From the NCBI RefSeq assembly GCF_947623445.1, contig NC_135246.1, positions 4,013,856-4,077,855 on the forward strand: a stretch of 64,000 nt of DNA. The letters run 5' to 3'. The stretch is from Clavelina lepadiformis. Taxonomy: Eukaryota > Chordata > Ascidiacea > Aplousobranchia > Clavelinidae. The translations under genes and the position numbers were made by a program. The notes beneath the pieces are model-generated. The model was not told the origin of the DNA and made no database searches. It worked only from the letters and a program-made list of their open reading frames with translations. Of this stretch, positions 14,887 to 50,661 are shown one piece after another. The stretch's first letter is position 1; each line of letters starts with the position of its first letter.

Positions 14887-14893
14887 CTTTGGG

Positions 14894-15032
14894 CACCCCA
14901 TTCGTCAAGGATTAGCCCATAGGAAAGGGAAAAAGGAATGCACGGATTACCCATTCGTATGGGCTAAAAAGAATATTTCCATCTCTTAAAATAATTGTTG
15001 TAAGGCTAATCGTGTTCGAATGAGGTAATCCA
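14894..15032 (+). repeat. Left terminal inverted repeat of the KDZ-class element
   Basis: Matches the reverse complement of the right end with only a few differences: CACCCCATTCGTCAAGG here, CACCCGCTTCGTCAAGG there, then essentially identical to about 15016 and weaker to 15032. It contains a shorter internal inverted pair, TTAGCCCATA at about 14912 and TATGGGCTAA at about 14958, separated by a purine-rich tract. This could be a transposase binding arrangement. Confidence 0.85.
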
Positions 15033-17514
15033 TTTGGTCACGTCACATTGCTGGTAGCTGTGTAGAAAACAGACAGCATACGTGAATTTACAGTGACTTC
15101 ATTTCATCTACAGTGTAATAAATAGTGTCATCCCGCATATAAGCTAGGGTGCTTGGCCTACATAGGCCTAAAACAATTGGCGGTAGTTGAAATACAGGAC
15201 CCTGTATTGGCCTATAGCCTACCTAATGTCCTTTGTAATGAAATGACTTATGCCTACAGATTATATAGGTATATATAGTCTAGGCCTATATAGTCAAGGC
15301 CTATAGTACAGGCTACCAGTATTCCAGTACTGCACCGACACACTAAAATGTTTGCAAGAAGGCCTATAACTAACTTTGAAACACACTTCAGTAGAATATT
15401 AAATATTGCATCTATCATGATGATTGTCAGCTAGTGGTGGTAAGCATCCCGGACTGCTGAGTAATTGAGTTTGCAGCTTTTGTCCCCATCATTAAGTATG
15501 AACATTCACCGAAAGCTGTCAAGCCCAATATGCGACATTAACGTTTATGAAAAACAATATTGGGTGCTTCCGTGCCTAACTTTGCAATTTGGGTGACATC
15601 TATCTCACCGACTGCCAGTTACCCATTGTGGAATGCGTGGCAACTACACAATCAAGGTTTTTGAAGACTATGCTTGCTGCACCTGAATATTTCACATGTA
15701 GACACTACCTCTTGCAAACACAGGCCACAGTTTCTAGATTTTGCCAACCAAATTGCAAAGTGCACCCCACCCCACCCCTACTCATCCTCCACCTAGTCAT
15801 TCTAGTTTCAGCCATCTTGCACTTCTAAGATCTCGTTGAAAGGTGCAATGATTTTCAGTGTGGTCAGATTCTAAATTCATAAAAAAACTACAACCGTACA
15901 TGCCTAGTCGGTTACAGCTTACGCTATTTGTATTTTGCTAGTCTTCTTCAGCAGCCGGCGGCTCTTGAAATAAATACTTATTTCACTAGGTGCCAGTTGC
16001 CGAAGTAAGAAAATACAAATATGAAAAATGGCAGTTTGGCTAGTCTGTCACGTGGAAGGTTTGCTTCTCAGTATTTACGGTTCACAGTTGGGTAGTTGTG
16101 AATATAACATTGATTGCATGCATTGTAATTTTTCAACTTAACGGTTACAGCGTTAGACAGAATAATCAACTTTTTTGTTACAGAATCACAACCTTTATCT
16201 TTGCGCAGCGTGACTAGAGTTTAGTAACTGAACTTGTTTTTGTCTAAGTTTCAACTTTTTTATTTGAATTTTTTGTATTGTATTTCTCGAATTTGAAACT
16301 GTAGAGTGAATTTGAAATAGCTAACCACGAGCGGTAGCAAGCTGAGCCAGATGCTTTAACTGCTACATCTTTGAGCTGGCATTTTGTGCAGGAGCTAATT
16401 TATAAGTACTAACTGTTTGAAAATCAAGGTCTTCCACACATCATACAGACTTTTGTTACCGGCACAGGATTTCAAGGGCTAGATTAAACATCATGGGTCA
16501 GCAGGTTGAGCTCCTGTGAGTCTTGCATAGTTCATTCTCCAGGCCCTGTGTACCCAATTGTAATGAAATGAACCTTGTAAATATTTGCTGGTTACCGTAG
16601 TAGAAAGTGTGGTGTAAGACTTAACTTACCTTAAATTGCTTAAATTTAATTTAAAATGTTAGAATTCCATGTTACTTACTTCATAAGCAGATAAAATTTT
16701 ACTCAATTTTTATTATATATTGTTGGTCTACATGAGCAGATCTTAACCAATGGGCTATTACTAACCTATGCAATCCTTTTATGAACAGAAATTATTTTCA
16801 CGAAAAAGTTTTCTTGTTTATGAGTATATATTGTAGGCTACTGCCACTGGCTAAACAGACCCAAAAAGATGTGGATGACTCACATCTCACTGATTAGAAC
16901 TTTCAAGTATTAAATATATTGCTGAGCTATGTATACCTTGTGTTTGTGACATATATCATATCAAATTGTCTGGGCAAGCAAGTCGCTGCAATGGTATGCA
17001 GGTATCATAAACAATAGACTACACTATGGTATGTACCTCCATGTTAATGCCTTGTTTATTCGTATCACCGGTAAGTTTGGTAATTTATACATACAGTACT
17101 TGAAAAACTCGCTAATATAGTTACATTAAATAATAATTATAATCTGCAACACTGTATTGTAAATTATGAATCATGACATAGGATCATAATTTTTTCTTAA
17201 CTGAGATGGCTATTGAGACCAGGTATTCTCAACTTTTGTGCGATCATATGCAGTATATTTTATATATACATTTAAATGTATTCTTTTTAGCTTTATTTTC
17301 AGATATAGGCTTCCCAGCTGATTCAAATTACACTACAAAATCTAACTGAGTTAGTAGTGATCTAACTTTGAAATGAATATTGCACACTCTTACATAACCC
17401 CTCCCTCTTTGTAGGATTGAATTTATTGTTGTTATTGTTAGACAAAAATATCTATAGGACAAGAATTTGCCTGTATGTTTACTGCAAATGGAAACTTGAC
17501 CTAGGTGTCAAGAA
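15033..17514. other. 5' part of the KDZ-class element, no exon recognised
   Basis: AT-rich DNA upstream of the transposase gene. 15150-15310 is enriched in TAGGCCTATA-like words. The open frame at 15589-15828 has no recognisable domain. The transposase promoter and any 5' UTR exons should lie here, but I cannot point to them. Confidence 0.4.
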
Positions 17515-20500
17515 ATGGGAAAATTAAAAGGAGTAAGTACGTTTACTATATTTTACTATGTTTTTTACGTTTTTTATCTAACGTCTGTTTAAATGGGATA
17601 GCTAATAAGATAGTAATTGGTTTCTTTTCATACCAATTTCAAGCGTTAATACCAAGAATTTGTTAATATAAATCAGGGTAGTCCTGTTATTTTTTCTGCA
17701 TGGGGCAGCAATAATAGTGGTTAGAGTAATGAATATATTGATATATCTTTTCCATTGCATAGGGAATTACAAAAGCTAAGTTTCGATATTGGGTAAAAGA
17801 ACCCAAAAAAAGAAAACGACCCGTTTCCCTCTTTGGCAAAACATTTGGTCCAGCGTTGAAACCCAATGCAAACAGTCACATAGTTACAAGAGGTTCTGTG
17901 GAAGGTGATCTAACTGCTACAAATCCTGAAATACCAAGCACTAATAATGTTAACAGTTCTTGTGGAGGTGAATGAAAGAAATAATATAAGGAGATTTACA
18001 ATATATTTCACATTTTTATGCTATATTTTTTCTGAAAATAATCACTTAACATTCATATTGAATACTGCATTTTAATTTTCATGTTATCACAGAGTTGGAA
18101 GAAAATTTAAATTACAAAATCAGAAGAGAGAAGCTGTCTTCAGATTGGCGATTAGTTGAAGAAAAATCAAGTTTAAGTTGTCCATAACCCTCTATTCTCC
18201 TGAGCGACGCACTTGCTGTGTATGCTTTGAAGAAGTTGCCAACATAATTTGTTGTGGAGATTGTGGGCCAAATGTATATTACTGTCGTTAGTGCTGGGAT
18301 AACTGTCATTCTTTTGTTTGGTATCATTTGCCAGACATATGGATGGTAATTAATAATTATATACAAATATCTTTATTTTTGTAAAGGTTATTCACAAAAA
18401 GACCACTCATTTATCTGGATATAAAAGGCCATTAATGTTTATTAATTTGTCTGTTGATAATTAATCAACAATAATTATTTCAAATGTATATATATAATAA
18501 GTTAAATACATTCGTCTACATAAAATAATTTATCATACCTTTAATTAATTATCACAAGAAAAAGTTGTCACTGGCAGAATATTAGAGGAAAAGAAACAGT
18601 AGCTTACATTTCTTTAAACTGGTCTAGACAACAATGTCATAGTTGCTTTTTGTGCAGTAGAATGTAAAAACTGTTTGCGTTAATACTGTAAACCAAATAT
18701 CTTTGCAATTATTCCTACATTTTTACCGGAATGTATCGAATAATGTTGAACTTAGATCTCTGTTTACAATATTGTTGAAAACATTTTCACAGCTGAGAAA
18801 TACAAAATGTGTCAAAAATGTATCTGAAGTATAAAAAGTAAAAGACAATGCTGGTGCCATATGTATGACACATTTTATTTCATGGCCTTCAAAAGATTCC
18901 CCTCCAACACATTTTTCAAAGCCCTTCCACTATACCACTACTACTTACTAATAACACTTTTTTAAATGCTCAAACATCTCCAGGTCTCTGCCAAATCAGT
19001 AATAGCAAGACTGGCAGCTGGAGAATGATGTTTGTGCTTGTTCTTTTTTTAGCTGTAAGTTGTTTCAAATCGCTCAATGTCATCAATTATCAATGATAGG
19101 CAGTTATTCAGACAAATCTGGAACAAAAAATTCTGTGCAACAAAATGAAGCATCCAGGCATGATGAAATTATAGAATTAAAGTGGTGAAGGAGATTTTAA
19201 GTTAAGCATATATTTAGGGAAAACGTGTTGCAGTTCTTCGTTAAAGTTTAGCTGCTTCTGCTCACAATGTATCACAGAAGACAGTTGGAGTAAGATAAGG
19301 TTGTAAATGAAATTTTGAGACAGCCTAAATATTTCAGTGTAGAAGCCATGTTACACGAAACCAAAAAAAATGTGTTGTTGTGGTATTTCACCACATAGGA
19401 AAACAAAATTAAGCGGTAAGCTTCTACCCATGTTAAAATCGTTGATTAAAATAGACTTAGTTTTTTTATAGAACTATTCCTGTATTTCTTGTGTATGTAC
19501 CACTATCACTTAGTTAAAATATCCAAACATTCTCTTGCAATTTTAGTCAACATATTACTTGTAACACATTGTTAATGGTATTATTTACACTTTACAGGGT
19601 AACATGTTTTGCAAAATGGTCACTCCGGTACGACTTTTGAAGAGATTTGATGGTCATGAATGTCAGTCAGGTTACACTCGACACATTACAGTGGTTGATT
19701 ACAAAGGTATAATTTTTTTTATTCCTTTACATTTATTATAAATCATCTCTGCCATTCTTTCATCCATTGTTTTCTTGTTCATTGGCAAAGTTTGCATTTT
19801 AGGTTTTGAAAATGTGGTTTCTGTACAATTTTGCTATTGTGAGAGTGAGCCTGAAACTCTGTTAAGATTAAATCTGTGGACCTGTTCGCCCAAAAAGCCT
19901 AAACTAGCAGTATCCATTGACCTATTGAAATACTTTCGAGCCTTGTGTCTCGAAAAACATCTTTCCACTGAAGGATTTTGCCATGCTCTTGAAAATAGAA
20001 TTTTGCGAGTACCTGGATATACAGCAGGGGTTAGCACTTTTTAGTGTTTTGTATTTCTAAGAAAATCCGAAACAACTTGTGGATGTTTCTTGTTTTTTTT
20101 GTTTTAGGTAAAGTCTTTGTCAAGAGTTTTGCTACAAGAAGTGGTTGAGGCATATAGACACCATGTCTATAAGCTGCAACATCTGCATGGTTTGGTCTCT
20201 TCTGATGATATAGATACGGGTACCCTGTGTCCAGCATGTGAAGGGGTAAAGCTAAGAAGTGTGATTGAAAATTCCCAGGCCTCTGTGATCGAGTGTAAAT
20301 GCTTGGCTTTAACTGCGTTTTGTTGGTAGAATCCTGAAGGTATGCGGACATATTGCTTAGATGCAAATTTTGGTTTGGTGAGAAGAATTTTGTCCGGGAG
20401 TAAAAGCTGTGATCCTCACCACAAACAATCTTTTTTTTTAAACCAAAACGAAGTCGACAGCTTTGTAGACACCTATGATGAAAACAAATATGGCTCGGCT

Positions 20501-23500
20501 GTAAGTTATTTCTTAACAGTATGTACCAAAATGCATTAAAAATATTAAATCAAGTACATAACTTCAACAATTGATTTCCAGTCATATTGTTATGGTCCTA
20601 TTATACATTTCAAGGAATTTCATGCATATTTATAAGAATAAATTCTGCATACTTATGCATTAATTAGAATCATTATTTTTAGTCCAAAAATTGCAATGAC
20701 TTTCAAGCAGGCAGCATCATTAGATCGAAATCTAAAAGCAGTAAACTGGCTATCAAAGGTGTATTTGGTGTTTGTTGTAAACATGAGTTTCCGACAATGT
20801 TTTTTGACTTAAAACATGGTGAAAGGTAAAGTGTACATTCTTGCTTTAGTTGTTTTGTGGAAGGTGTATTACTACGGTATATGTAGTATTTGTGTATTAG
20901 TATTTGTAAACAATGTTTTTAAAACTGATTCTGTTGCAGGCTAGCATATGCAGTTTTAGCTATTGAAAACCTTCTGGAAAGAAACGAAAATAAAATAAGA
21001 GTTTTCTATGACATAGCTTGCAAACTGAAAGGTCATCTTCAGGTATACCTTTAAGAATTTACACGTGATATTGTGTTAGTATGGCAATATTGATATACGT
21101 TTAAATTATAGGTATACAACCCATTTTTCGAAACATATTTTATTTGTAAGCAATCTACTCCTGGGTCATTGATTGCATGTCATTAGTGTTCTTAATGTTA
21201 GTGCATACTGCAGACGATGCTGTATGTGCAAGTTAGTTAATCATTTTTGCTTACATAAAATACTGCATTTATGTTTAAATAATAATTAAGATTTTGTGAT
21301 TTTCTTTCTGGATTCCAATATGATTTCATTATTTAGGTCCGAAAAAACTTTGCAATTCTTAATAAAATAACATTTGCAGTACCTGTTTTTCATTCATATG
21401 GCCATATTTTCTCTTGTCAGGTAAACATGATATTTTATACCTATATATTGTACAACTGTTAGGTCAAAGTCTTTTAGTTTTATTACACTGAGCACAAGAA
21501 ATTCACCGAAAATATTAAGGTCTAATTTTGAAAAACTTGTTGTCTGTATGACAAAATCTTTATATAAGGATGTATTCAAGTGTAATGAGATAATTATCTC
21601 TCAGTTTTTTTGTTCTGTTTAAAATTTAGAAACAATTCAACCCGAGGTTCCTGGATGGGTTTGGACTTACGGATGGTGAAACTGTGGAGCGATTATGGGC
21701 ATACCTTCGTGGATTTAACAAAATCTCAAAAGAGATGAAACCGGAACATCGTACTGATTTGCTTACCGGTGGCTTGATTCATTATGGGCGCAAGATCAAA
21801 AAAAATTTGAGTAAGCCTTGTTTGTGATTTGGTCCAGATTGACTTAAGATATCTTCACACAATTAAATAAACTTGCATGATTTAGGTTTTCTTTTTCTTC
21901 AGCTTTCAAACATGCACTGAATAACTAAAATAAATATGACAAGCTTTAAGCTCTGTTTCAAAGGTTGTACATTGATGAACAAGCTGAAGAGAGCTAGCTG
22001 CAAAATGGAATTGGCCAAGAGTGAATTAGAAGCTATGGCAGCTTCTTACCCTGGTGGTATATATGATTATGTGTCTTTGTATATTTGTATTTGTATCATC
22101 TATTTGAATTATTATATTCCTTGTTATTTATTTTCAGAAATGAGAGTATAACATTATACAATAAACCTTACAGGAACATTAACACAACATCAATTAAAAG
22201 CAATAGCTCTGCAACCAGAGCCGTGTTCTTCTGCAGAAATGGCATCTTTTTCTTGGGTAGAAGAATACTCACTTAAACTTCAAGAATACTATTGGTTGAA
22301 GTGAGTTGACTAAATGTTTTCTGAATGATACATTTTTCAATACAATTTTATGGTGTATAAAATTCATGCTAGTTACTGTTTGTGGGTTGTATTGCAAAAG
22401 TGAAAATTGCGAAACTGTTGAACATACAAATTTAAGTACTGAATCCTTTAGGAATAGAATTTTGTATAATTGTATAGGAAACTATATAATTTTGTTAATT
22501 TGTAGAGAAGACGTTGAAGATTTGACAAAGGAAATAACGTCTGAAATACTTTTTGGAAAAGTTGACCAAATTGCTAAGTAAGCTGAAGGACATATCAATG
22601 TTAAATTGAGTTACTACAATAATTCCCCAGACATAAACGAATATTGTTACTTCCCACTGCTGCAACATCAGAAACCATTAGAAAAGCTTATAAAACAGTA
22701 ACAACAGTGTATCCGCCAAAATTACTGTGATAAAGTTAAAACCCACACAATGATGGTGAAAATACAGTATATGGGAGTTCAATTGCCAAGAGTATTGTTT
22801 GCCAGGACATGATATATGCTTTCTTCATCGATGTATTGCATGTTCTTCTATTTTACATATTGTATGCGTTGTTTTGTAGACTTGACAGTCATCTTTCCAA
22901 AGTTGAAGTAGAAAACGGTATATTGATTCGTTGGGATGTAAAAGATGATATGATGCTTAAATATTTGTCAAGTGCTGTGAAGAAAAAAAGAGCAGAAATT
23001 TTGGAGAACATTTATAAATTAAATATCGAAAAATTTTTTTTATCTACTTTGATTCAAAAATACCCAGGTAATTTGTGCATGCACTATGCATGGGGTTACA
23101 TTATCGATAAAGCTACTGTTCTGTTATTTTCAAGTTTGTACATGATGATTTTTCAGCTGGTCAAACAATTGTTCAACGACTAGTGCGAAGCATCAGGAAG
23201 GTTAACAACAACATTCGTCATCAGATTACTATGTATAATAAATACCAGAATGTTCCACAAAATGAAATGAAAAGCATAACTTTTGAAATGGTTGTCGGGT
23301 CTGGGCCAGTTCAAAACGTACCTGGTTTTATTGAAAAAAAAATCAAGGAACAACATTGCATTCGGGAAAGGTGCAAAGAAGAAATGTGTCATTTAAAAGA
23401 AGATATGACAAGTGTGATGAACTTCTATCAAAAGCAAATAAACATAGTGTCTAATCTTGTAGAAGGCTGTGAGGTTGTGGAACCATATGTGGTTACCCAT

Positions 23501-23740
23501 CAGTTGCAAGCAGAGATCGAACTTCTTTCTTTCATAAATGACATTAAGGGCACAGTACCTTTTCAAGCAAATACACCTCTGCTCAATGAGAAGCTAGGCA
23601 CTTACGATATGGCAAAATTGGACCCAATGGAGAAAGAAGATGATGAAAGTGAATCACCAATAAATTTATCTGAGCTTCAACACATTTTAACTGAATTTGG
23701 CTCGGAAAGCGAAGGTTCAGATAACGAAGATGAAGCTTAA
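17515..23740 (+). CDS. KDZ (Zisupton-type) transposase, multi-exon, probably disrupted
   Basis: Family hallmarks appear in order across exons: a basic N-terminus (17515-17532, 17763-17967); a Cys/His cluster CCVCFEEVANIICCGDC..CWDNCHS..YHLPDIW (18093-18349); RFDGHECQSGYTRHITVVDY (19598-19710); 19803-20030; 20109-20247; 20330-20500; GVFGVCCKHEFPTMFFDLKH (20682-20825); VFYDIACKLKGHLQ (20940-21041); FAVPVFHSYGH (21337-21420); GFGLTDGETVERLWAYLRG (21630-21810); 21963-22055; 22171-22300; 22505-22576; 22880-23070; and a last exon 23157-23740 ending in acidic residues. The transposase would cut and integrate the element in the nucleus. The core exons are open with good GT-AG sites. The N-terminal cluster exon changes frame (stop at 18185-18187 in the entering frame) and has an in-frame TAG at 18289-18291, so this copy is probably inactive. 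Splicing between 18349 and 19598 is unresolved. Confidence 0.87.
18093..18349 (+). other. Broken zinc-cluster exon of the KDZ transposase
   Basis: Encodes the Cys/His-rich cluster near the N-terminus of the transposase. The frame entering from 17967 (ELEENLNYKIRREKLSSDW) ends at TAA 18185-18187, while the cluster is read in another frame that opens only after about 18160 and is interrupted by TAG between YYCR and CWDNC. Either one short indel plus one stop mutation has occurred, or an unseen intron splits the exon; the TAG remains in both cases. Confidence 0.7.
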
Positions 23741-24689
23741 ACTAATTAGTTTTAACCCGTGTCCTTGAGTCAGTTATGCCACAAAATTACGTTTAACTGC
23801 ATTTGTTTCCATTTTTTTGTACGCATTTCAGTTATTAAACGTTCATTACATATATATGCTTGCCATATGTTTGTTTTGCCTCAGAAACGTTTCCTAGGCA
23901 GTAGGCAGTCTATCAAATATTTCGCCTTTAATCGTCGGAAAGGAAGAGTACGATGATTGCAAAAAGGAGCAATGCACGTCGACCTAAAACGTGGAAAGAC
24001 CTTGACCCTTTGTGGTGCTATAACGGTGAAAGGTTAACGACGGCTACCCAACACACCAAGCGTTTCACGGTGATACTGTACCAAATAAGATTTTAGGAAA
24101 CTTACAGAACGTGCTCGTTGTTGATAGGCACATGGACGGTTAAAACAGAACTCGGTTATAAGAAACAGCATTTTAGGGATTAAGACCCCGCTTCTGTTGC
24201 CAGAACACATCAAACCCTCAGAATTCAAGCATTCTCCAATTTCGATGAAACTGTCCAGTAAATGAGCATGCAAAATTTAGTACACTCTGTATTTTGTCAC
24301 TCTTTCGCTGTAAGCTTACTTGTTTAACTTTCAATTATAAACGTGCGTGGGATCAACAAACTTCTTATTAGTCTATACTTTTGCTGGCCAAAGCAACAAT
24401 GTTATCGGTATAACTTTTTTTAGTTAAATACAGGCTAAAGCTTATAATAATTGGCGTTGATTTCTTTAATGAATGAAAAATGCACAGTTGTTCTTAAAAC
24501 AGTCCGCACAAAAAATGAATTTCTTTTTTAAATTGTTGCGATTAACCATGCCTAATTTGTTTATTCAATATTTCAATGCTGTTTTATTCTCTTAGAGCTA
24601 CAATCATGGAAAATTTTCATTTCCGTGTCAAAATCTTCACCTAGTAAATAACAAAAAAAGTAGTATTTGTCGTCGTGTGATCCAGTTGT
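23741..24689. other. Region 3' of the KDZ transposase
   Basis: No coding exon recognised. 24130-24220 (GGGATTAAGACCCCGCTTCT region) resembles 13620-13720 outside the element, pointing to a dispersed repeat. Confidence 0.4.
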
Positions 24690-25720
24690 TATTCAGCCCA
24701 TCAAGCTGGATGGAAAAGAGTGGAAGCACAGGAGGTTGGATGCCGGCAACTTGCTGACCGCAAGGAAGAGAAGGTTTTCCAATGATGTGGGACCCAGACA
24801 TCCAGTACGTTAAACACCGTAGTATGCAAAATACCGTTTATGACAATGTGTACTTGGTGGTTGTGTGATGCGACACCAGACACAAGTGCAGTAAGCTACT
24901 CAGCGATGGAATAAAGTAAAACCATCGCTTTTTTACGGAGAGTAGCAGCCTAGTGCCCGAGCAAAAGTTATCATTTGTCTTTTCAAGGCGATCCGGGATA
25001 TTCGTTTCTTGCGTAGTGACTCAAGTTGTCGACAAAACGTGAGCCAACTGTTCGAGTTCGACAAAACGTGAGCGAACTGTTATTCCGACTTATTTGGGAA
25101 CTGGACAGAAGAGCGCGTAGATGTTTAAGAAGGAGTGCCATCGATCCTTGTGGGATCCCGTCTTTAAGGCGTCATAGCTTGTTTCGCTTATTGTGACCTG
25201 GGGTGAAGATACTTCTCCGTTTGTAAACTAGCTCCATGGTTATACGGATTATGTACCTGTTTTGTCTGGGAGTAGACGCAGCGGCTTGCAGGCAAAGCTT
25301 CGGTGCCATACTGTATCATAGGCAGCTGTAAGTTTATGAAGTACAGCACCAGCCTTTTTGTTAATCCCGAAGCTTTTCGCGATGTTCTGGGTCATAAGGG
25401 TGACCTGGAATTCAGCCAGGGGAGAAGTTGTCGATTATGGGTTCGACGCAGGGGTAGACCAAGCGTTTGCGGACTTTCAAGAGGACACACAAAAGAGATA
25501 GGGGCAACAACTCTTCGGGCCCTAAATCACGATGATAAAAGCTCTTGAAATTTTGTGACCCAGAACCTTGCTTGGCTTTGTTTGATGGAGCACAGCAGCG
25601 AAGTCATTTTGAGAGAAATGGCCAGAGATGTTTTCGCCATCAGGGGTTTCTAACCTCTAAAGGTCAGACACTTCTTTTCCAACAAGTTTGGTCCCTCTTT
25701 TCGTGTATTCCGTATTCATT
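24690..25720 (-). pseudogene. Decayed LINE reverse transcriptase
   Basis: Reading the minus strand, fragments of a non-LTR retrotransposon reverse transcriptase appear in correct order but in shifting frames: LLPLSLLCVLLKVRKRLVYP (about 25480-25535), LTAAYDTVWHRSFACKPLRL (about 25255-25335), TMELVYKRR, RLKDGIPQGSMA (about 25131-25167), a degenerate catalytic box FVDNLS near 25030, and VAGIQPPVLPLFSIQLD (about 24710-24760). This is the arrangement of a jockey/CR1-group ORF2. Many stops and shifts show it is long dead. It probably inserted into the KDZ-class element after that element was in place. Confidence 0.75.
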
Positions 25721-27287
25721 CAGTTGTGTGGCGAATGTGTTGGATGAGAAAAAGCGCGGGCGTATTGAGTAAGCTGACCGGCCAGCGAAATTGTTCAAGA
25801 CACTGTGAGCAGTATTGATAGTATTGAGTTTATAGATCTGTCCACAGCGCTAGCTTCTTGGGATTGGGTCTCTGCAAGACCGAAGGGGCTGCTTTACTAG
25901 AAGCGGTAGATCTACAGCGTCAAGAGAAAAGAACGGTGGTAAAGGACGTGATGTGGTGTGTCACTAAGTTTTAAAGTTGTAATTGCTGAAGCGATGCAAT
26001 AAATAATAACAATAGGTTGTAAGTCTTGCCAAGGTTTCTCTTTTGATATTTTATCAAAATACAGATTTAATAAAAAAAAACTAACCATTTGAGAAAATTT
26101 TCTTTTCGTTAAACTTATTCATAATTTTAATAGTTGGCAAAACCGGCAAAAAGATCTAAAAATGCGTTTTATTGATCTTGTTTTACCATGTGAACCAGAA
26201 AGAGGATCAAAATGTCATACAACAAAAAGGTTATAGGCTACTTTTATAAACGCATGTTGAGTGTTAATAAGCATTTCAAATTCCGACATGATATTGTTGG
26301 AGATATTTATGACAGACTTGAATTTGATAGCCTTGTAGCGATTGAGCTCGCCTACCTCTTCAATAATATCATGTCATAATATCATACGATAGAAGAGATT
26401 ATTACGATGAAATGTGTTCGACCCACACGTCAATAACAGATAAGAGCTTTCAACTTATATTGCATAGAATTTTCATTGTTAGGTTGCGTCCTTTTTAAAG
26501 TGGTTAATTTAACCTTCCTAAAAAGGTGTGAGTAACATTTTGAAGTTAACATCACGATCTTCTGTTTTTAATGTGGCCACATCAAAATTAGCATGCGACC
26601 AACTTATCAAAGAAACCTCTTATCATGTTATGTCCATTTGTATTCGTCACGTCATTGACTTTTAACGTAATCGCAAGTGTGACTCGTTTAGGCTACATAT
26701 CAAAGTTTTGCACATATTGCAACTACTTTTTAGTGAAAGTGTCACGAAAAGTGATATTGAACCCCCATATTACTATGGAATTTTGTTAAATTAAGTTACA
26801 CGTTAATGTTAAATTAAGCCTTAATAGAAAATCAATGTACCAAAATACAGCAGTGAGTCATTATCACTAAAAATGCTTTGATTCAGCACAGTATATTTTC
26901 CGAAAGCGCAGTCAAAAAGTGAAAAGCAAAATTACGAAAATATTGAAGACGGTGAAATAAGTAAAAAAACAACAAACAATTTTAACGAATGTTAACTTTA
27001 TACAATGACGAAAATGCGGACATAAATAAAGGATGAGGTGCTAAAATGGAATGAATGATCGCAGCTTACGTTAATAATAAAAGACTGTAAAAGAGGCACA
27101 CTACAAATCTAACTGCACAAATAAGGAAAATTAACGAAAAGTAACTATCCGCTCACCAATACGTGTGTGATATAATTATATACTGTACAGTATATTAGCA
27201 CAATAGGTTGGTCAGAAGAAATCATTGCACCGTTGTACGGCAATGTAAAAATAACAAACATTACGAAAACGAAACTGGCAAATTATG
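25721..27287. other. AT-rich DNA, no gene recognised
   Basis: The left end may be the 5' continuation of the LINE remnant; beyond about 26000 I see no motif, gene or clear repeat. Confidence 0.4.
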
Positions 27288-27289
27288 TA

Positions 27290-27565
27290 CCGTATTTTAC
27301 GGACCATAAGGCGCACCGGGCTATACGGCGCATTGTCAATAAATTGCTTTGATTAGTTTTTTGTTCATACATAAGGCGTATCGGACTATAAGGGCATATG
27401 GCTATAAGGCGCATGTGTTACCGTATAAAGCTCATTAAAATACGTTGTGAGCATGCGCATACGCATTATGATCCATACATTAGGCGCACCGGCTTATAAG
27501 GCGCACGATCAATCTATGAGGAGAAAAAAGGATTTAAAGTGCGCCTTATGGTCCGTAAAATACGG
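27290..27565. mobile_element. MITE with CCGTATTTTACGGACCATAA ends
   Basis: Perfect inverted ends of at least 27 bp (CCGTATTTTACGGACCATAA and its complement, then GGCGCAC) flanked by TA on both sides (27288-27289, 27566-27567). The interior is built of repeated ATAAGGCGCAC-like modules. Elements with this terminal and module pattern are widespread in animal genomes. No coding capacity. Confidence 0.85.
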
Positions 27566-27601
27566 TAATTTTTACTCGTTATACATATAACACTGAACAA
27601 A

Positions 27602-30334
27602 TTACCAATCTACTGTTCTATGTGTTGGTTCAATAAAGTGCAAATGTTCCTCATTTTCACATTCTTCCGTTGTCACCAAAAGAACTAAATTTTTTTCTGC
27701 CAGCTCCAAATTGCTATAAAGAGCAACAAGTATAACAGAAAGCGCACAGCGTAAAATTTGTAATGTAATCCTTTTATGCATGCAAAGATTACAGAAATCC
27801 CATCACTTACCCCCTTTTCATAATTATAATATTTTCTTGCTCATCTATAATTTTCTGGCAATCGACTGGACCATAACTGCCGGGATTTCGAAAGGGGATT
27901 CCACAAGGCATTCCAGTGATGCTGAACTCGTTAATTTTAGCATACAGCATACGTCCATTGGATTTGTGCATTGTCTCACCTGTAAAGCACCAGAGCAAAG
28001 ATACCAAGGCATGCACAAACACAACTTAATATAATTAAGATGAAACAATTAGCATCAATTCTATTGTATTACATTCTATTGCTTGGAAAAATACGCAACA
28101 CTAATAATAAACGTTTTTATTTCACACCGTTAGGCTAAAGAAAGACAATTTGTTGGCATAAAAAGACTTACAATATTTCTTATTAAAAAATTTTCGAACT
28201 TTCATTTGCAATTCGGTGTTTTTTTGTCTTCAAGTACTGCAAGCTGTATACAAATATATACCATACGTTACTTCTAATGAAAATTTTTTCATACTTTATG
28301 ATTAACATGCTTAATAATGACACTAATATCATTCAGGTTCATATACAAAAAAAATCTTCAATGAGTTAAAGTTAAAAAATAAGTGCTATAACAGTTCCTT
28401 TTAATATATGCTTGCAGTAAATGTAACTGTAGTTAATCATGTTCTTGCAAATGTTTAGAAATATCACAGTAAATTACATAAAATTACCTTTTCCGCAATG
28501 TAATATCTCAATAAAGCCACTTTGAACACTTGGCTCCAAGAAATATGGCCTTACATCCCTGCTTCCAAATGCATTGAATGTATCGTTAACAAATGCCATT
28601 CCACCAACGGCCACACCAATTTCTTCAAGTTTACCACACTAAAACAGGATCAAGTTACCTTTGTTTCGTGTACAGCACGGTTACACCATAGTATAATATG
28701 AACAGCAACATACAGCTTGAATTATTTGAGCAATGGCATTTTGTCTAAGTTTGGTTTTCATGTTTCCATCCATTTCATTTGGTGGCATGGAACTTTCAGA
28801 ATTGAAGGTCTTTGCTTTCTCTTTCCAAACTTGTTTCGTTTGCTTCGGAAGTTCTCTCCACCTGCTACCGCAGAGTTTGAAATCTTGAAAAACAGCAATT
28901 AAAAATTAGTACAAAACATTTGAAAGCTTTATAAAAAAATGAACATAAATTGAAAGTAAGAAACACTGAAAATAGGCAAGACCTTACTTCATGCAAAACA
29001 CTTTGATAACTTGTCTAAACTAGTACTTTCATTGTTCAGCTGTTAACATAGTGAAACCTTCATTTATGTAAATTTGCAAGTTGAGTAGAAGCTTACACCT
29101 CTTAAGATTTAACAGCGTCAATCAATGTTAACATCTTCAGTATCTAATTCTAAGGCTTTCTAATAACCAACATAACAGTAAACACATTTTTGGAAGTTCA
29201 TTACACACGTATCATGTGAGGTCACAAATAGCATGCACTTCAAGTCATGCATCATTCATTATGTATCATGCTCTTCACTAATCCAACTAACACTGTGACA
29301 CAAGTTTCACAATCAAACCGAGAAAAAAAAATTACTACATGCAAATTTAGTAATGAACACAGTAAGCATGAAATCAATGAATGCAATTTATCAGGTGAAA
29401 AACAATGAAAATTATTTTGAGTGAGAACTACATTTGTGCATTTAACGACATAATGCTAATGACTCAATGAAGCAAGCGATCAATTAAGCAAACCAACCAG
29501 AATATCAGACCTTGTACATATCTTAAATGAAACACATGTGATGCTGTCTAGAAGCTTCTCCCTTGAAAATTTGGGAAAAAATCATGCAACTGTATTAAAA
29601 ATAACAATATTCTGTTTCTTAATGGAAGAACAAAATAGATTGTAGCCTGTGAATCTTCGTTTTCGAAAAGGTTTAACTTTTTGAACCCTTGGCCTTATTG
29701 ATGCATTGTAATTGTAAATCCAACGCTAAAACACAGCAGTTGTCAAAACGCTAGTAAACAAGCGGCAAAAGTATTTAGTAGTGGCAGTTTAACATACCAT
29801 CATACAAGAGATCTGAGAAAGGGACAAACTTTAATCATTTTGTAAGATCATGCAATAAACATGCAATAACTACTTTAAGTTGGAGAGTTGTCCCGGACAA
29901 GGAACGGAGCCTTTGATTATAAATCGTGTCTGGTTTACGCTTTTTTCTCAGCCAACAAGATTATTTTGGCGAAGACAACTGTTGCAATCTTTGAACTTAA
30001 AGTACGTAATGGCATCTTTCAACCAGAGTTCTATCATAATAGCCTACTTCAAGCGGAAATTACAGCATAGAGTTACAGTAATGAACTGTAACTTGTTTGT
30101 AAAGCAGGGAGTGCAGTTCTACAGCTTGCGGTAATACTGAAAGAGCTGATAACTACAGCAAGTATGAATTATGGCAAATAAAACTTTAATCTACGATGAA
30201 TCACCTTGATTTGGTTTTTACTTAAACCAGTATTAATGGTTGCTTCATTGAGGTGCTCTGACTTTGCAGTTCTCATACCTTTTGTTTCCCACAAAGATAT
30301 AAGCATATCCCGCTGGCTTTGTGAAATGTCCTTA
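27602..30334 (-). CDS. Spliced gene with homeodomain-like and HMG-box-like segments, unknown function
   Basis: Exons in transcription order: 30334-30205, from 29725 (low end unclear, about 29640), 28883-28714, 28638-28488, 27979-27811 and a possible last exon 27696-27602. The first two join in phase to read KNQIK/RWIYNYNASIRPR, like helix 3 of a divergent homeodomain (W-x-x-N). PFRKRRFTGYNLF followed, after a gap, by SRWRELPKQTKQVWKEKAKT resembles an HMG box. The C-terminal part (FVNDTFNAFGSRDVRPYFLE, GRMLYAKINEFSITGMPCGI) matches no domain I recognise. Three downstream junctions keep phase with GT-AG sites, which argues for a real gene. Exons upstream of 30334 and part of the HMG segment were not found, and the last exon is ambiguous in phase. 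It sits inside the KDZ-class element, antisense to the transposase: an accessory gene or a captured host gene. Confidence 0.6.
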
Positions 30335-33300
30335 CTGAACAATGCAAATCAAATTATTAATAAGTGAGACACAAAAATATTTTTTTTAAATTGAAAACAC
30401 AGGTTGTCTGTATCTACACGAAATATCTTACGTCCATCTGGACGGCAATTTAGAATAGCGTTTTATTAACACTTTTAGTGACTTATATGCAAATGAACAG
30501 AGTGACATGAAATAAATGCCATACTAACAATTACTTATTTATGACCAAAGATCGAATTAAATATACAACAGATATATACATATAAGTTAGCTATTATACA
30601 TGAAGAACTAACCGAGTTCTTCTAGTGCTTGCCATGTTACTCAGAAAAGAGCAAATAGTACGACAAAATTTTAACAATTTTACAAAAATTAAAACATGCA
30701 ATAAACTAAACTGTTTGGATAAAAATTAGTTTTGTAAGAAGTAATCACCACTCAATATGAATTAAGAATAGAACATACACACATAAAGATAGTCATCCTA
30801 ATAAATAATATAACTTAGGGCACATGTTGCAATAAAAGCAAACGCTCAACACTAAAGTCTTACAGATGTCAAAAATTTACTGTGCACAGATATGATTTTC
30901 TTGGTGCTTGGTAATCAACAGTAAGCGCATGTTTCAACTTCAACTCCTTTTCAAATCATAAAGGCTTCAAAGATCATCAAGAAGTTTGGCCAACCCTTTT
31001 ATGTATATGGTACACATAAGTCTTTTCCTACAGCACTATAGTATTACAATATCACAATGTTCTTTTGGCTAATAGCTTATATGCACATACTTTGATGTGA
31101 ATTAAACACTTAATCTGTGAGGTCATTGTCTGTCTCAGCACAACCAAGTTATGGGCATTGATGCTATAAAAATGTAAAAATATAAGCGATAGTAGCTGTG
31201 ACATGAAATGACAAATGTTCCAAATCAATTTACTTGATATTTGTTTGTAATAAGCGATTGTTTTTCGGAGTAAATAGCCATTTATCTGCACAACTTCTTT
31301 GACCAGCTTTTTGTTTAAATAGGCCATTCTTGAATGCAGTTGAGAATAAATTGCCAGCATTACTGTTCAAAGTGGATGGCTTTTAAGAGGTGGCAAGTTG
31401 TATTTAATCGGGGCTTTTATCAAGCAATAAGCATGGATGTTTTAACAAAAATCCATTATATCATATATATTGTAGTAACCGGTGCCCTTCAAAAACTTTG
31501 CTAATCGTAACTTTCTTAATTGAAATGTTTGGTCTGAAAAGCATACAAAGTAGGTGGCTTCAGGAAGAAATTGAGTTTTATTTTGAAAACAGTACACCAA
31601 AATGAAGTGCTGTTTTCAATCCTCGCAGAAAAGCAATCGTTTAGACAACAACAACCTTTTATTTGTGGTAATTTTGATGGCAGCCACTTGAGATGGTTGC
31701 TTTCGCATGGACTAAGATTCAAATCAAGAGCACTAGAGCTAAAGTACACATTTCAGTAATAACTCTAAACATTCTCTTGGAAAGGTAGAACAAATCTTAC
31801 TGACACTTTTTAGTCGGAGGTAGTGGTATATTTTGAAATAATTTGAAGAATATGTAAAACAGATAATAAAAAAGTCAAGACAGGCTTCAGAATTTCATGG
31901 TCCCAAACTAGGGTAAAGTTGGTACAACAACAACAACAAAGGTCAGTAAAGGGGTACACATGAAAAAACGTTTCCAAATTAAACAACTTCATGCATTATG
32001 TATTTACTTCCAAGTGAAGTTTCTCCCAAAATAGCCAAGTTTCAGTCATTCACAATGTGCATCAAACAGAAGATTTCAGCTGGCAAACAATGTTTGGTGG
32101 TGGATAATGTTGCATTCCAAACAAATTAAAAAATTTAAATAGTTTTAATTTAAGAATTTAAAATACGAAATCAAATCAAAATATTTTACTGTTGACAATA
32201 ATTATTACCATCAAAAAAACTCTGCATAATCTAACAAAACCTTCTTTTGTCTTAAGTTAAAAAGCAATGAAGCACATTCAAAAGTAATCAATTTCGCTAA
32301 GCGCAGCATCTTACATCGATCAGCAGAAAAATTCTCGGACAGCAGTTTTTGCCACAGCGTGTGCTCTGACTTACTCTGACTGCTGGTTGGTCACTATGTT
32401 TTGTTGTCTCTCTTTAAATTATTTTCTCCTAATCTCACTTGATGCCACTACTAACAGCATGATCTGCATATCAACAAGCACTTCCCAGATGTCTGCGTTG
32501 ATGCCTGTCCTTTTTGGGTACGTTTGAAAACATCCCTGATGTGTAGTGCGGTACGAACTACATAGTATCGCTTAGTGGCTTGTTTACCATAGGTCTTGAA
32601 GTATATCAGCATTCTTGCTGTGACTCACATGACTGAGTAAGCGCAAACAATGTCAACAGAGCAAGTTATGTATGCTGAGCGAGTCCCCAGCAGATATGGA
32701 CCTTGCCTCATGACACATGACTGTGATAATGACGGCATCTTTGCCAATAGACTAATTGTTCTTAATGAATCGAGATAAATAATTATAATTAATTACCCAT
32801 CACAGTTGAGCCAAGTGGTGAGTGAACTTAAATAACGACCCACCAAGAGATCGGGTACTCGGCCAAAAATTGGGAAACAGTGAGCTGACCCTTGGCCAAT
32901 GCATATATCCAAAATTGGAGAATAAAGCTAACAATGAGTGTTAGCATCCATTTACCCTAACACCAAGGTAGAAACAAGTGAGCTTAAACCTAACATCAAC
33001 AGCTCACCTTGTGACACCTTGCAGAAAATTTAAATCTTTGGTAAAAAAATGACTAATGGGCATTGGGCACCAAATCTACACTGTTATAGTAAACAGCATC
33101 CTGTGACTGGATGTAGACCTATAGAACCCCACAGCATGACAATTTTTCTGTTTTTGTGAGCATTGAACCTGCTGGGCTTCAGTGCGATAGAGTCACTCCT
33201 TACCTTGCACATTATGAAGCGGAGCCACTCTGATTGCTCCTCCCGAAACTATTTGCCTCAGCAAAAAAGCAAGCCGGATAAATAAAATCAAGATACCCAT

Positions 33301-33934
33301 TGCTCACTGGCTCTACACTGCTAAGGATGGCGTGGGGGAACTTAATTGCCTGCTATCTGGAGATGGTTGTTTCTGCTCAACCCTGTAAAAATAGGGAATG
33401 GCAAACATTGTAACTTGTGAACGTAGCACTAAGAAGATTGCAAAATAAAGATTACAACATATCCAGCTATTGTATCCCTACGTTCCCCATGGAATACATA
33501 GTCATCAATTTTTGGATGCATTACCCAGTAGTTACTTGACTCAAGCTCAAACATCTAGTTTGTGTTGCCAAATAACATCTTGCTCAGAGGAAGCAGGCTG
33601 ATGGTAAAACAGGGATATTTTTACACAAGACATTTATTTTCTAGAGGCCGTTTATTATCACTTTTAATTTGTAATAATCTGCAAACTCATGAATGCATAT
33701 AATCGACTAATAGCACTCTTTGAGAACGATTGAAACCTTCGTTTGTCGAAAGTCAAGACAAATTAAATGATTGCCTTTTGCTTATGATCTGCATATCAGA
33801 TGGATTTCCTTTTTGGAATACTACAATGTTAAGTTGCTCTTTCACTCCACTCAGGATTTCGAAGTTCTCTGACAATCACACAAGATCACTGTACTCTGCA
33901 AGCTCGTTATGTAAGAAAGCAGCAATGTTGAGTA
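30335..33934. other. Right half of the KDZ-class element, no exon recognised
   Basis: Should contain the 5' exons and promoter of the minus-strand gene, but none could be identified. Open frames here (for example 31516-31749 on the minus strand) lack recognisable motifs. Confidence 0.4.
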
Positions 33935-34110
33935 GTAGCCAGCTTTGTAGCCGAATGGTTAGAGCTGGCAATTAGGCAGTGTTCACTACCCAATAGCACT
34001 ACCATTGTTATGCCCTTGGGGTATTACCAATGCTTGCTCCAGTTCAGTGCTTCTGATAAACATACCTAAATTCAAGCAATAAAAAACATATGTGTATCAT
34101 TCCGAACTTG
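33935..34110 (+). repeat. tRNA-derived SINE fragment (tentative)
   Basis: TAGCCGAATGGTTAGAGCTG resembles the 5' half (A box) of a tRNA-derived SINE and is similar to the better copy at 50994-51250. The following sequence is diverged, including CCCTTGGGGTATTA in place of the SINE body word CTTGGGCAAGGCATTA. Confidence 0.45.
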
Positions 34111-34888
34111 CTTAAGAGCTAGCCAGATAAGTGGGGCTGGAGCAATTAAAGATTACCACAAAGGTTAATGGAAGCGAACTAAATTGACATATGAAGTTAT
34201 ACTTCTATCCTAGCCGCCAAATAAAGAAAATCATGTTGATTGCTGTGAAACGCTTTGACCTTATGCCACAGCAGTGGTATGCCACGTGTATATAATTGAT
34301 GCAATCACACCAGCTTGAAGGCAAAACTATTTCAACCTGATGCTGAATAAAAGCACCATGCAATTACCACAATTCAATTTAATACATTGCATGAGCACTG
34401 CAAACCCGAAAAAGTGACTTTTGGCTACTAGAGTACCGGTCTATCGTTGGCTGGATTGCCAGTTCAAACACCATTGTGCATTGCACTGTGCAACAATTAA
34501 GCAGTCTTTAGAACTTGCTTGGATTCTACATTCAGTAAGTAAGCATACAGCTATTCCAGTGCCTAGAAGCCCGAGGTAGATAACCTATATCTTGTCTACG
34601 AAACAGGACCAATTAAGCAGCGTTAATGCCAGACACACCAAACGCATGAAAGAACTGAAATCGAAAACTAGGCTATTTTGTTCATTTCAGCCTTTTCAGA
34701 TTTTTAGTGAGATCCGTTTATAGTTTGTGCAAGGCATTCCAACGTGCATCAATCACTATACAAACCTTATCCATACATACCGGTATAGATCTCAGTAGTC
34801 TACAACAGTAGCCTAAGCCATCAAATCGTACCGTACGATGACCAGCCACAGCAGTTCGACTGGATTACTTATTCGACCTATCGCTCGG

Positions 34889-35027
34889 TTGGATTACTCA
34901 TACCAACACGATTAGCCTTACAACAATTATTTTAAGAGATGGAAATATTCTTTTTAGCCCATACGAATGGGTAATCCGTGCATTCCTTTTTCCCTTTCCT
35001 ATGGGCTAATCCTTGACGAAGCGGGTG
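34889..35027 (-). repeat. Right terminal inverted repeat of the KDZ-class element
   Basis: Inverted partner of 14894-15032. The inner ~120 bp are essentially identical to the left end, ending CTTGACGAAGCGGGTG, and the CTTTGGG duplicate follows directly. Confidence 0.85.
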
Positions 35028-35089
35028 CTTTGGGGAACCACCTGTACTAAAGCATAGTTTTAAAATTGAATTTAGGCCAAGCCTAATAT

Positions 35090-40712: not shown

Positions 40713-42460
40713 TCTGAACTTGCACACCATTAGGGTTTAAACATTTGACATTTACAACAACAAAGTTTGCATAGAAATTGTACGTAACTTAAAAATTTCT
40801 TCATTTCATCAATCTTCTGCATGCAATTAACATTGCGTACAGCATATCTTGCAGATAGCAATACTGACCTTACGAGCTGGTAATAAACTAGCTAGCTAGC
40901 TTAACAGCATTCAAACATCTAAAGCAAGATTTAATCAAAGTTAAAACAATGCAACCAAAAGCTGTAAGAATGTTGTAAGTCTTTTGATATTTCAGAGAGT
41001 TCATTCACTTCTTAACAAATGCTTTGAGTCCCTCTGTACTCATTGACTTTGGACGTTCGAGTGGTAAACCCAATGCCCTGCTCCAAATAAGCTGTGAGAG
41101 ACATCCAAGTGCACGAGAAACTCCAACAAACACAGTGTAATACTGCATTTCCGTCATGCCATAATGTTGCAAAAGAACACCACTGTGTGCATCAACATTA
41201 GGCCATGGATTTTGAGCCTTGCCTTGTTTAAGCAGAATGTCAGGCACAATTTTGTAGAGCTGTCCAACCAATTTAAACATGGAATCATCTGGAAGATGCT
41301 TCAAGGCAAATTCTCGTTGACATGTGTACCGTGGATCTGTTTTGCGTAACACAGCATGGCCATAACCAGGAACAACTCTGCCACCTTTCAAGGTATCCCA
41401 GATATATTTCTTCAACACTTCATCTGTGACATCGGCACCACCTAAATCTTCACGGACACCTGTCAACCAGACAAGTACTTCTTGATTAGCTAGACCATGG
41501 AGGGGTCCGGCAAGACCATTCATAGCTGCAGCAATGCAAAGATAAGGATCACTAAGTGCACTTCCGACAAGATGAGAAGTGTGAGCACTCACATTTCCAC
41601 CTTCATGGTCAGAATGAATAACAAGATACAGGCGCATTAACTCAATAAAATCTTGCTGCTCATAGCCAAGCATATTGCAGAAATTAAGTGACCAGTCAGC
41701 ATTCTCATCAATGCTACCTGTGAATTTACCATCTTTGTAAAGGTTGCGGTATATCTTGGCGGCAATAATGGGAATTTTTGCAATTAAATTCATCGCATCT
41801 TCATAGACCAACTCCCAATACTTGGTTTTATGCACTCCTTCCGCATATGCTTTTGCAAACATAGATTCGGTATTCAAAGCTGACAAAGCAGCACTTAGCT
41901 GTGACATTGGATGAACATTGCTGGGCAACTGGTCAAGTAGATTAACAACATGTGGTGGTAGATCTGCTCTTTGTGCCCACTCTCTACTCACCCAACTCAC
42001 TTGTTCTTGAGTTGGAATTTCGCCGGTGCAAAGCAGCCAAAATAAACCTTCAGGAAGAGGTTCAGAACCATTCACTGCTTTGGGCAATAACTTCTGGCAC
42101 TCGGGAATGCTGTATCCCCGAAATCGAATTCCTTCTTCGGGATCCAACACAGATGTTTCCCACACCATACCTTTAATACCGCGCATACCACCGTACATCA
42201 TGTCGACGGTAACATCTCCGACCTTTGTAGAGCCCTTTTCTTTGCGAAATTCTTTGATCTCGGCTTGCTTCTGAGGAATTTGCTCGCGTAAAACCTCTTT
42301 TAAATCATTTGTAGCCGACACATACCCTCTTGAAACAGCCGCAGAGAACTTTGCAGTATTTGGCGACAGAGCTTTAAAAAATAACTTTCTCAGTGCCATC
42401 TTGTATAGTAATCGCCGCCAACACAATCAAACGGAACAATGCAACTTGAAACAAATACGT
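40713..42460. repeat. Tandem duplication unit A around citrate synthase
   Basis: Begins at GCACACCATTAGGGTTTAAAC, which recurs at about 42469 (GCACACCATTAGGCTTTAAAC) as the start of the second unit. The block with CATGCAATTAAC and CATATCTTGCAGATAGC, the ~100 bp 3' UTR, the coding region and the 5' flank (GGAACAATGCAACTTGAAAC) all recur in the second unit. Confidence 0.75.
41005..42399 (-). CDS. CS: Mitochondrial citrate synthase, intronless copy A
   Basis: Condenses acetyl-CoA with oxaloacetate to citrate in the mitochondrial matrix. A single exon of 464 codons. The N-terminus [13 protein letters not shown] has the Arg/Lys-rich look of a mitochondrial targeting peptide. Catalytic segments are present: the His of [14 protein letters not shown], the His of [16 protein letters not shown] and the Asp of [15 protein letters not shown] start at the Met matching copy B, although the frame stays open for nine more codons upstream. 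It differs from copy B only in the C-terminal third, with several less usual residues here ([11 protein letters not shown] where copy B has the common [11 protein letters not shown]). Vertebrate CS genes have many introns, so the intronless form suggests retroposition before tandem duplication. Tail-to-tail with TPGS2. Confidence 0.97.
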
Positions 42461-43379: not shown

Positions 43380-44329
43380 GTCTAGAGTCTAGACTCTAGA
43401 GACAAACTCACTTACATACAGTGGTGGACACTTGCTACTCTTCTCCACAAATCCCAACTTTCACTCATCATCACTTTTGATTTACTCACGTTCACTACAC
43501 TCCAAAGTTTCTCCACTTCGTATTGTTTTCCATTAATGAATTCCAGCTTTGAGCCATCAATCCAATTAACTGGCATTAAGCAACTCATGGACGAGGGAAG
43601 TGTGGTACTATAATACCGAATTACTGTACTGCAAACTTTGTACGGAATTGGTCACTACTATTGAAAAAAAGATTACACTTTCTTGAAAAATTTTAGTCGG
43701 TACTGCTACTCAGTGCTTTTCAAGGTTTTGAAAACTATGTTTATCAAAAGTTCATTTTAATTAAACCTTAATGCCAAATTTAATCTTGGCAATTTTTTTT
43801 AATTTTTAAATGTCTAACACTGTATACAGTTATCTATGTTTTTACACATCTACTGTATGTCCACAGTATTTTTCAGAAACTGGTTGTAGGTGTAATAGTA
43901 TCACATCTTAACATCTCATGTTTTTGCGATAGGTCATAAACTCATAATAATCAAACTGAAGCAGCTATTTCAACACTTTATTTTACAGACTTCCATTTCA
44001 AGCAACAAGACCTGCATATTTTTATGACTGAAGTTTCAACCCCACTTCTTTTGTAGAAAATCTGAAGCATGACTCATAATGACCTTATGAGCTGATAATA
44101 AACTAGCTAGCTTTGACAGAAACCAGATATTGCAATTTTGGCATCATCTCTATTTCACTGATTTACATAAGGGATTTGTTAAATATATATGGAACTCAAC
44201 ACAAACAACGCATAAAACTTGTAACTTAACAGCATTCAAACATCTAAAGCAAGATTTAATCAAAGTTAAAACAATGCAACCAAAAGCTGTAAGAATGTTG
44301 TAAGTCTTTTGATATTTCAGAGAGTTCAT

Positions 44330-46752: not shown

Positions 46753-47134
46753 TGTGATAAATATATCAATTAATGAAATATAAAATTGTGTACGACATAG
46801 AATTCTCGTCTAGCGAATCAGCGAAGCATAACACTTTGTGACGTAATCGATTGCTTCTCTGTTACTGTGCGTGCATTACGAGTCGTCACTTAACAGTCTA
46901 CTAAGTTAACCCTAGAAAGTGGTCGACTTTATTATGTAGCTGTCACAATGTTCTATCTTGATGTATTAATTCAAAGAAGCTTCAAATATAATCAGATTAT
47001 ACAGTAGTCATTCCTGTGTCATTATTGCTGAAGTCTATCAAAGTTCACTGTTAAGATATAGACAAGTAAACAGACTTTGTAAGGAAGTGGGCAAACCTTA
47101 CAGGTTAAGGTACCATATACCACTTTTCATTACA
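46753..47134 (+). repeat. 5' LTR
   Basis: 382 bp, TG...CA termini. Uninterrupted, and therefore shows the empty form of the MULE target (AATCAGATTATACAGTAGTC). It differs from the 3' LTR at about three positions by eye. Confidence 0.93.
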
Positions 47135-50652: not shown

Positions 50653-50661
50653 GATTATACA

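Follow-up and report, generated by a model that had tools for sequence, protein, structure and literature searches.

A KDZ transposon of the ascidian Clavelina lepadiformis pairs its transposase with a gene carrying a GTF2I repeat

A complete 20-kb KDZ element

The DNA analyzed here is a 64,000-nucleotide stretch of the genome of the ascidian Clavelina lepadiformis (NCBI RefSeq assembly GCF_947623445.1, contig NC_135246.1, positions 4,013,856 to 4,077,855), hereafter the window, whose own numbering is used for its features. It lies on scaffold C7; C1, C4, C12 and similar names denote other scaffolds or contigs of the same genome. Positions 14894–35027 of the window are a single complete transposon of the KDZ superfamily, 20,134 bp long, delimited by a pair of terminal inverted repeats (TIRs), by collinear copies and by a target site duplication (TSD). 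Between the ends lie two convergent genes, a spliced KDZ transposase on the forward strand (17757–23740) and, on the reverse strand, a second gene (27602–30635; gene 2) with a homeodomain-like stretch, an HMG-like stretch and a GTF2I repeat.

The TSD, CTTTGGG, directly abuts the left end at 14887–14893 and the right end at 35028–35034 (both on the forward strand), and the two copies are exact, as had been noticed in an earlier reading made from the letters alone (the sequence-only reading). A repeat search of the window, the kind of self-comparison which that reading had proposed, finds inverted arms at 14893–15024 and 34897–35028 that pair without gaps over 132 nt and are 97% complementary. 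With limits set by homology to other copies, the left TIR spans 139 bp (14894–15032, forward strand; tip CACCCCATTCGTC) and the right TIR 138 bp (34890–35027, reverse strand; tip CACCCGCTTCGTC read inward), so that the inverted ends stand as first described while their length of about 130 bp has to be revised upward. The element begins with CACCC and ends with GGGTG.

Copies in the genome and evidence of mobility

The genome was searched with the left TIR, and the best 40 of 145 candidates were scored; the copy numbers are therefore lower bounds. Ends were paired using longer queries from each end, and other partial or diverged matches were excluded from pairing. At least 27 elements have both ends paired: 21 of 19.9–21.3 kb, four of 15.4 kb, one rearranged form of 22.5 kb, and one miniature inverted-repeat transposable element (MITE) of 501 bp. 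End pairs at the proposed spacing of 15–25 kb are present, 21 in the longer and four in the shorter size class, besides the 22.5-kb form. An exact 7/7 duplication flanks 23 of the 27, and these are 23 different words; mispaired flanks, used as a control, gave no exact 7-mer match in 702 combinations. One further element (C6:17732938) has a 6/7 duplication.

Interiors are collinear in the five 20-kb copies compared (B–F); the window copy can be aligned with them over its full length, interrupted only by a few indel blocks, and mismatch among these copies and the window element is 0.07–1.85%. Copies B and C lie at 10.56 and 11.90 Mb of C1 and show 17 mismatches in 19,704 aligned bases; D and F, at different sites on C4 and C8, show 14 in 20,152. 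An empty site exists for the element on C12, a small unplaced contig, where the TSD is GTTATAC: at C3:6474204 the joined flanks align through the junction with 94% identity over 141 nt, with a single 7-mer, GTTGTAC, and one of the flanks extends along C3 at 90.5% over 1.6 kb. From this we infer that C12 represents the other haplotype. A search for such empty sites with one 7-mer had been proposed as a check; one was found for the C12 element, and for the window insertion a search of the assembly found none.

That search result weighs against the reading of these sequences as mobile units, as does the lack of a TSD in three of the 27 paired elements, namely C8:7635779, the 15.4-kb C8:13626732 and the 501-bp MITE. 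We nevertheless regard it as very probable that the family is a recently active, cut-and-paste, two-gene unit of the KDZ superfamily. That the two ends in the window are independent short MITEs, spaced 20 kb apart by accident, has in its favor the 501-bp MITE-like element (C6:16854461–16854961), whose TIRs are the same. This is ruled out, to our minds almost beyond doubt, by the 21 pairs recurring at 19.9–21.3 kb, by the collinear interiors of the five copies compared, by the 7-bp TSDs that bracket the whole unit in most pairs, and by the one empty site.

The 15.4-kb copies are large non-autonomous elements whose tips are swapped left to right relative to the window copy. One of them, copy G (C8:13924202–13939652, L083–L084), compared over its whole length, is about 76–92% identical to the window element in pieces and reaches 97% identity at the right end; the KDZ core exons are missing from it. 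A genome search for KDZ matches found none in any of the four. Three of the four have a perfect duplication, which makes mobilization in trans probable. In the 22.5-kb element (C4:1778191–1800736, L085–L087) the right end occurs a second time in inverted orientation, over about 2.8 kb, and the TSD, TCGAAAA, is perfect; this foldback-like form seems either to have transposed or to have been converted in place.

Six more ends whose flanks were examined were left unpaired. One of these, C1:12402063, is probably a segmental duplicate, because its left flank is identical to that of C1:12430478. At the empty site on C3 (6471206–6474347), about 2.9 kb separates two flank parts that adjoin on C12, and this segment is probably another insertion that is polymorphic between haplotypes. 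Within the element, 0.9 kb of the window (24006–24917) aligns in D–F, while B, C and H have other sequence of similar length there. To the right of the element the window holds near-identical direct repeats (40897–41196 with 44222–44521, 46753–47004 with 48265–48516, and 46995–47134 with 50653–50792), likely other mobile DNA.

The KDZ transposase gene

About 15 exon pieces of the transposase gene were recognized, by tblastn with P0001 and P0003, two annotated Clavelina KDZ proteins which the window exons match piece by piece, and by comparison of exons among copies. A cysteine-rich N-terminal stretch (18092–18345; tblastn, copy comparison) carries the lesions described below. Further downstream, all on the forward strand, follow the exon with YCLDANFGLVRR (20330–20500; tblastn, alignment), which contains the invariant aspartate in column D170 of P0001; the exon with VFYDIACKL and invariant D288 (20941–21042; tblastn, alignment); the exon with FAVPVFHSYGH (21337–21420; tblastn, copy comparison); the exon with GLTDGETVERLW and the near-invariant E343/E346 (21630–21809; tblastn, alignment); and the last exon, with the stop (23156–23740; tblastn). 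The KDZ blocks named in the sequence-only reading, at 21001, 21373 and 21663, do fall inside exons of this spliced gene.

Profile searches, which had been suggested as a further check, agree. P0001 scores 155 bits against the Pfam family KDZ (PF18758; cut-off 26.6), a single KDZ exon of the window copy scores 35.1 bits, and the N-terminal cysteine-cluster domains CxC2 and CxC1 of P0001 score 45.9 and 36.6 bits, above their Pfam cut-offs. In an alignment of 34 KDZ proteins, D170 and D288 are invariant and E343/E346, in the DGE..E block, near-invariant, and from this conservation we infer that these residues are catalytic. A scan of coding potential by codon position, in which the window copy was compared with a 15.4-kb relative, delineated no clear exons.

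The transposase had been called nearly complete; its pieces do run through to the stop, but the N-terminal exon is broken. The reading frame is shifted by a small indel near 18166 and interrupted by a TAG stop in YYCR*CWDNC. Because of this broken exon the window copy is probably non-autonomous. None of copies B–H has a stop at the YYCR*CWDNC position; D and F have one in the exon at 20941, and B and C have none in the exons examined. Copies without the lesions of the window copy could, to judge from their exons, supply transposase in trans. All but two of the paired 20-kb elements (19 of 21) have the KDZ exon, and both exceptions are 21.3-kb elements; in copy E, the 21.3-kb element examined, there is a deletion at its place.

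Gene 2 and its domains

Gene 2 is the more informative half of the element. It is the extra gene that had been claimed for this locus, now with a GTF2I repeat recognized in it, matched by the annotated Clavelina proteins P0059–P0063 (tblastn, Pfam) and lying tail to tail with the transposase. Read along the reverse strand, it starts with a piece at 30635–30612 that matches P0059–P0063, or, in the annotated model P0063 only, with an alternative first exon at 32738–32628 (tblastn). A homeodomain-like exon follows (30205–30333; tblastn, and a paralogous stretch of P0064 and P0066), and then an exon that probably holds the end of the homeodomain-like stretch and the first HMG-like half (RFTGYNLFCSS; 29622–29725), placed by eye from a paralogous exon in L091, a locus of a second KDZ family on C8, with an uncertain 3' border. 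The second HMG-like half lies at 28714–28884 (tblastn; HMG_box_2 E 0.007, below the cut-off), and a search for a small middle exon between the two halves gave one weak candidate only. Beyond these come a linker exon at 28489–28638, conserved in both KDZ families (tblastn, family comparison), an exon with the first part of the GTF2I repeat (NTELQMKVRKFFNKKY; about 28171–28229, from the match to annotated proteins), an exon with its main part (27810–27980), and the C-terminal exon with the stop (27602–27712; tblastn).

The GTF2I repeat is clear. Against PF02946 (cut-off 27), P0060 scores 37.3 bits over the whole repeat, P0061 36.0 and P0068 31.7, and the main exon of the window taken alone scores 26 bits, just under the cut-off. 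With P0060 as the query, the PDB returns eight sequences at E<=1, each of them a TFII-I-family repeat, the best at E 2.8e-6. A profile built from four gene 2 sequences finds ten chains of the TFII-I family at E<=1, the best at 6.6e-8, along with six unrelated chains at E 0.07–0.54. For the homeodomain, P0064, a protein of the second family, has 11 PDB matches at E<=5, and every one is a homeodomain (best E 0.0098). TFAM is an HMG protein of mitochondria, and the four-sequence profile reaches it only at E of about 4.

Several observations on gene 2 weigh against the two-gene reading of the element. The homeodomain scores of the second family stay under the PF00046 cut-off of 22.9 (21.1 bits for P0064 and 22.2 for P0066), and the corresponding stretch of the window's own family (family 1) gives no homeodomain call. 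The HMG box is likewise below its cut-off of 22.4 bits, with 17.4 bits in one exon and 9.1 in P0064, and the stretch is, from its sequence, HMG-like at most. There are stops in gene 2 of copies G and H and one in the last exon of copy E, and the annotated models P0061, P0062 and P0063 differ in how exons are joined. Two homologue searches of limited sensitivity returned relatives from Clavelina only (5 of 5 and 10 of 10 matches). One Clavelina protein, P0067, joins the start of the gene 2 protein of the second family to a DUF7041 domain; it is a fusion or a nested element.

A second KDZ family with the same pair of genes

A genome scan with PF02946 was made exon by exon and missed weak exons, including the GTF2I exon of the window's own family. 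Among the matches listed genome-wide there are five GTF2I loci, and all adjoin KDZ transposase sequence. Four of them (on C8, C4, C1 and C2) lie 5–6 kb from a KDZ match in convergent orientation; at the fifth, C6:5723881, a relic of a KDZ N-terminal exon is found on the same strand at a distance of about 0.7 kb. At L091 the order is homeodomain-like stretch, HMG-like halves, linker and GTF2I repeat, as in gene 2 of the window. Gene 2 DNA of this second family (family 2) recurs in further family-2 loci, at some of them with 87–91% identity.

The clearest family-2 element, C1:25500647–25518368, is 17,722 bp long, with the TSD CGCAGTG on both sides and TIRs of 1,400 bp that are 99.7% identical. 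Its tip, CACCCCATTCGTC, has the same 13 bases as the left tip of the window element. Its KDZ exons are mostly 94–100% identical to P0006 and P0007, with lower values where the alignments enter introns, and its gene 2 is 98% identical to that of L091. A second copy, C1:1362364–1383653, has both tips, a KDZ match and a GTF2I match above the cut-off, and retains the main GTF2I exon. Against the two-gene reading, the first has lost most of the main GTF2I exon, its match to gene 2 of L091 ending after some 40 bases of that exon, and the second lacks a matching duplication and part of gene 2. For the family-2 copy on C4, no tip was found at the far end within the stretch examined.

The two families have diverged considerably. 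Their transposases are 51% identical over 566 residues (P0006 of family 2 against P0001 of family 1), their gene 2 proteins about 35% identical, and in the 6-kb KDZ region compared at the DNA level only a single 94-nt stretch still matches. Despite this divergence, both families retain the two genes in the same orientation and share the tip.

Two other observations concern family-2 DNA and its surroundings. A stretch of about 1 kb in L091 (749–1769, about C8:13441248–13442268) recurs at full or nearly full length at 14 or more other sites with 88–89% identity, and in part at more, and is probably another repeat nested in the family-2 element. On C7, a KDZ match at 2628120–2629108 has a diverged gene 2 region (89–91%) about 9 kb away at 2638245–2640431, in convergent orientation, and this pair (C7:2628120–2640431) may represent a third lineage of two-gene elements.

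A possible role for gene 2

The anatomy of the element points to cut-and-paste transposition by the KDZ transposase. The enzyme, with a predicted D,D,E active site of the RNase-H type, would bind the shared CACCCCATTCGTC tips, excise the element and insert it into target DNA cut with a stagger of 7 bases. Since gene 2 is present in both families, we suggest that it has a role in the life of the element rather than being a chance passenger. On balance we lean, cautiously, toward an element-encoded accessory protein that binds and bends DNA: it may act on subterminal TIR DNA and help to pair the two ends, or, alternatively, it may tether the element to host chromatin. RAG, which uses a second subunit together with host HMGB1, would be the analogy for such pairing.

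Gene 2 may instead be cargo: an ancestral KDZ element would have picked up a TFII-I-like host gene on a single occasion, and that gene would have no role in transposition, or an anti-silencing role such as has been proposed for the TET/JBP genes of fungal KDZ elements. This is a possible, if rather doubtful, explanation. TFII-I repeats are indeed known from vertebrate transcription factors, as the PDB matches show, and captured TET/JBP genes do occur in fungal KDZ elements (PMC12730594). Against it, the domain order of gene 2 is kept between families whose proteins have diverged to the extent given above, which argues for selection on gene 2, and no GTF2I match lies away from KDZ sequence among those listed by the exon-by-exon search that missed the exon of the window's own family. 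We consider it unlikely that gene 2 encodes a repressor of its own element, one whose homeodomain-like and HMG-like stretches contact the TIRs and keep copy number in check. DNA-binding-type domains without a recognized catalytic domain are what such a repressor would have, and the differing exon joins of P0061, P0062 and P0063 would suit it; those splice variants are, however, predictions.

Relationship to known elements

In a tree of 31 KDZ proteins, family 1 and family 2 group together (95/93) and join Ciona (100/100) in a tunicate clade that is separate from the sequences of molluscs, echinoderms, lancelets and fish, with the fungal ones beyond a long branch; the program gave a long-branch warning, and the sequences carry no Kyakuja, Dileera or Zisupton labels. 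The sequence-only reading had placed the element in a KDZ/Zisupton class. KDZ is upheld by Pfam, but Zisupton is doubtful because its TSD is 8 bp and that of the window element 7 bp. In the length of its TSD and in its CA..TG ends the element is closer to fungal Kyakuja than to Zisupton or Dileera.

What the available text of PMC12730594 says of these groups can be set beside the Clavelina elements. Zisupton, until that report the sole KDZ group well characterized as a transposon with defined ends, and Dileera have TSDs of 8 bp; the two fungal Kyakuja families described have 7 bp and termini 5'-CA..TG-3' (PMC12730594). Kyakuja shares with the Clavelina element a KDZ transposase, the TSD length and the termini; the fungal elements lack TIRs and carry TET/JBP genes (PMC12730594), whereas those of Clavelina have TIRs of 139 bp or 1.4 kb and a GTF2I-repeat gene, and live in an animal host. 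Zisupton shares the KDZ transposase and the presence of TIRs and differs in its TSD, and that text mentions no gene 2 for it (PMC12730594). The absence of TIRs in fungal Kyakuja may not be a defining trait of animal members.

A Maverick/Polinton or another virus-like giant element would fit the size of 15–22 kb and the TIRs of more than 100 bp. We give this next to no credence: the element has a KDZ transposase with introns, its TSD is 7 bp against the 5–6 bp of Polintons, and six open reading frame pieces scanned in the right half, which cover a minor part of it, gave no viral-type Pfam match.

The RAG transposase family is not known to be related to KDZ, nor is RAG2L known as a homeodomain, HMG or GTF2I protein. 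RAG-like transposons such as ProtoRAG have a similar layout of two convergent genes between 5'-CAC TIRs with a TSD (PMC7204232). Their TSD is 5 bp long, that of the Clavelina element 7 bp. The likeness is one of design and not of descent.

Vertebrate TFII-I proteins have several repeats and are not known to carry a homeodomain. Gene 2 shares with this family (GTF2I, GTF2IRD1) a GTF2I repeat that matches solved I-repeats by sequence, and differs in having a single repeat, in a transposon gene. TFII-I repeats are also combined with a DNA transposon in GTF2IRD2, where a mammalian host gene of the TFII-I type has become joined to a hAT (Charlie8-like) transposase (PMC10641963); in Clavelina the repeat belongs to a separate gene within a mobile KDZ element.

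Significance

No two-gene KDZ element with a GTF2I gene was found in the open-licence literature searched, nor was such a pairing found in reports on GTF2I and transposons, on the origin of GTF2I or on Zisupton accessory proteins. What is new is a stable two-gene design that joins a transposase to a protein with a TFII-I repeat. The Clavelina genome offers 21 paired copies of about 20 kb with both ends, most of them with TSDs, one with an empty site and some nearly identical. If gene 2 aids transposition, the element would parallel the two-gene transposons of the RAG1/RAG2 type and would bring its own DNA-bending partner.

A more far-reaching idea, which we put forward tentatively and think improbable as matters stand, is that the vertebrate TFII-I (GTF2I) repeat and a DNA-binding accessory protein of KDZ transposons have a common origin, or that the repeat is derived from such a protein. 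TFII-I is a transcription factor encoded in the region deleted in human Williams syndrome. Were the idea true, TFII-I, GTF2IRD1 and GTF2IRD2 would be domesticated transposon genes, and the tunicate element would stand to their source as ProtoRAG does to that of RAG, as a surviving relative. The element also provides a concrete, testable lead on the origin of the TFII-I domain.

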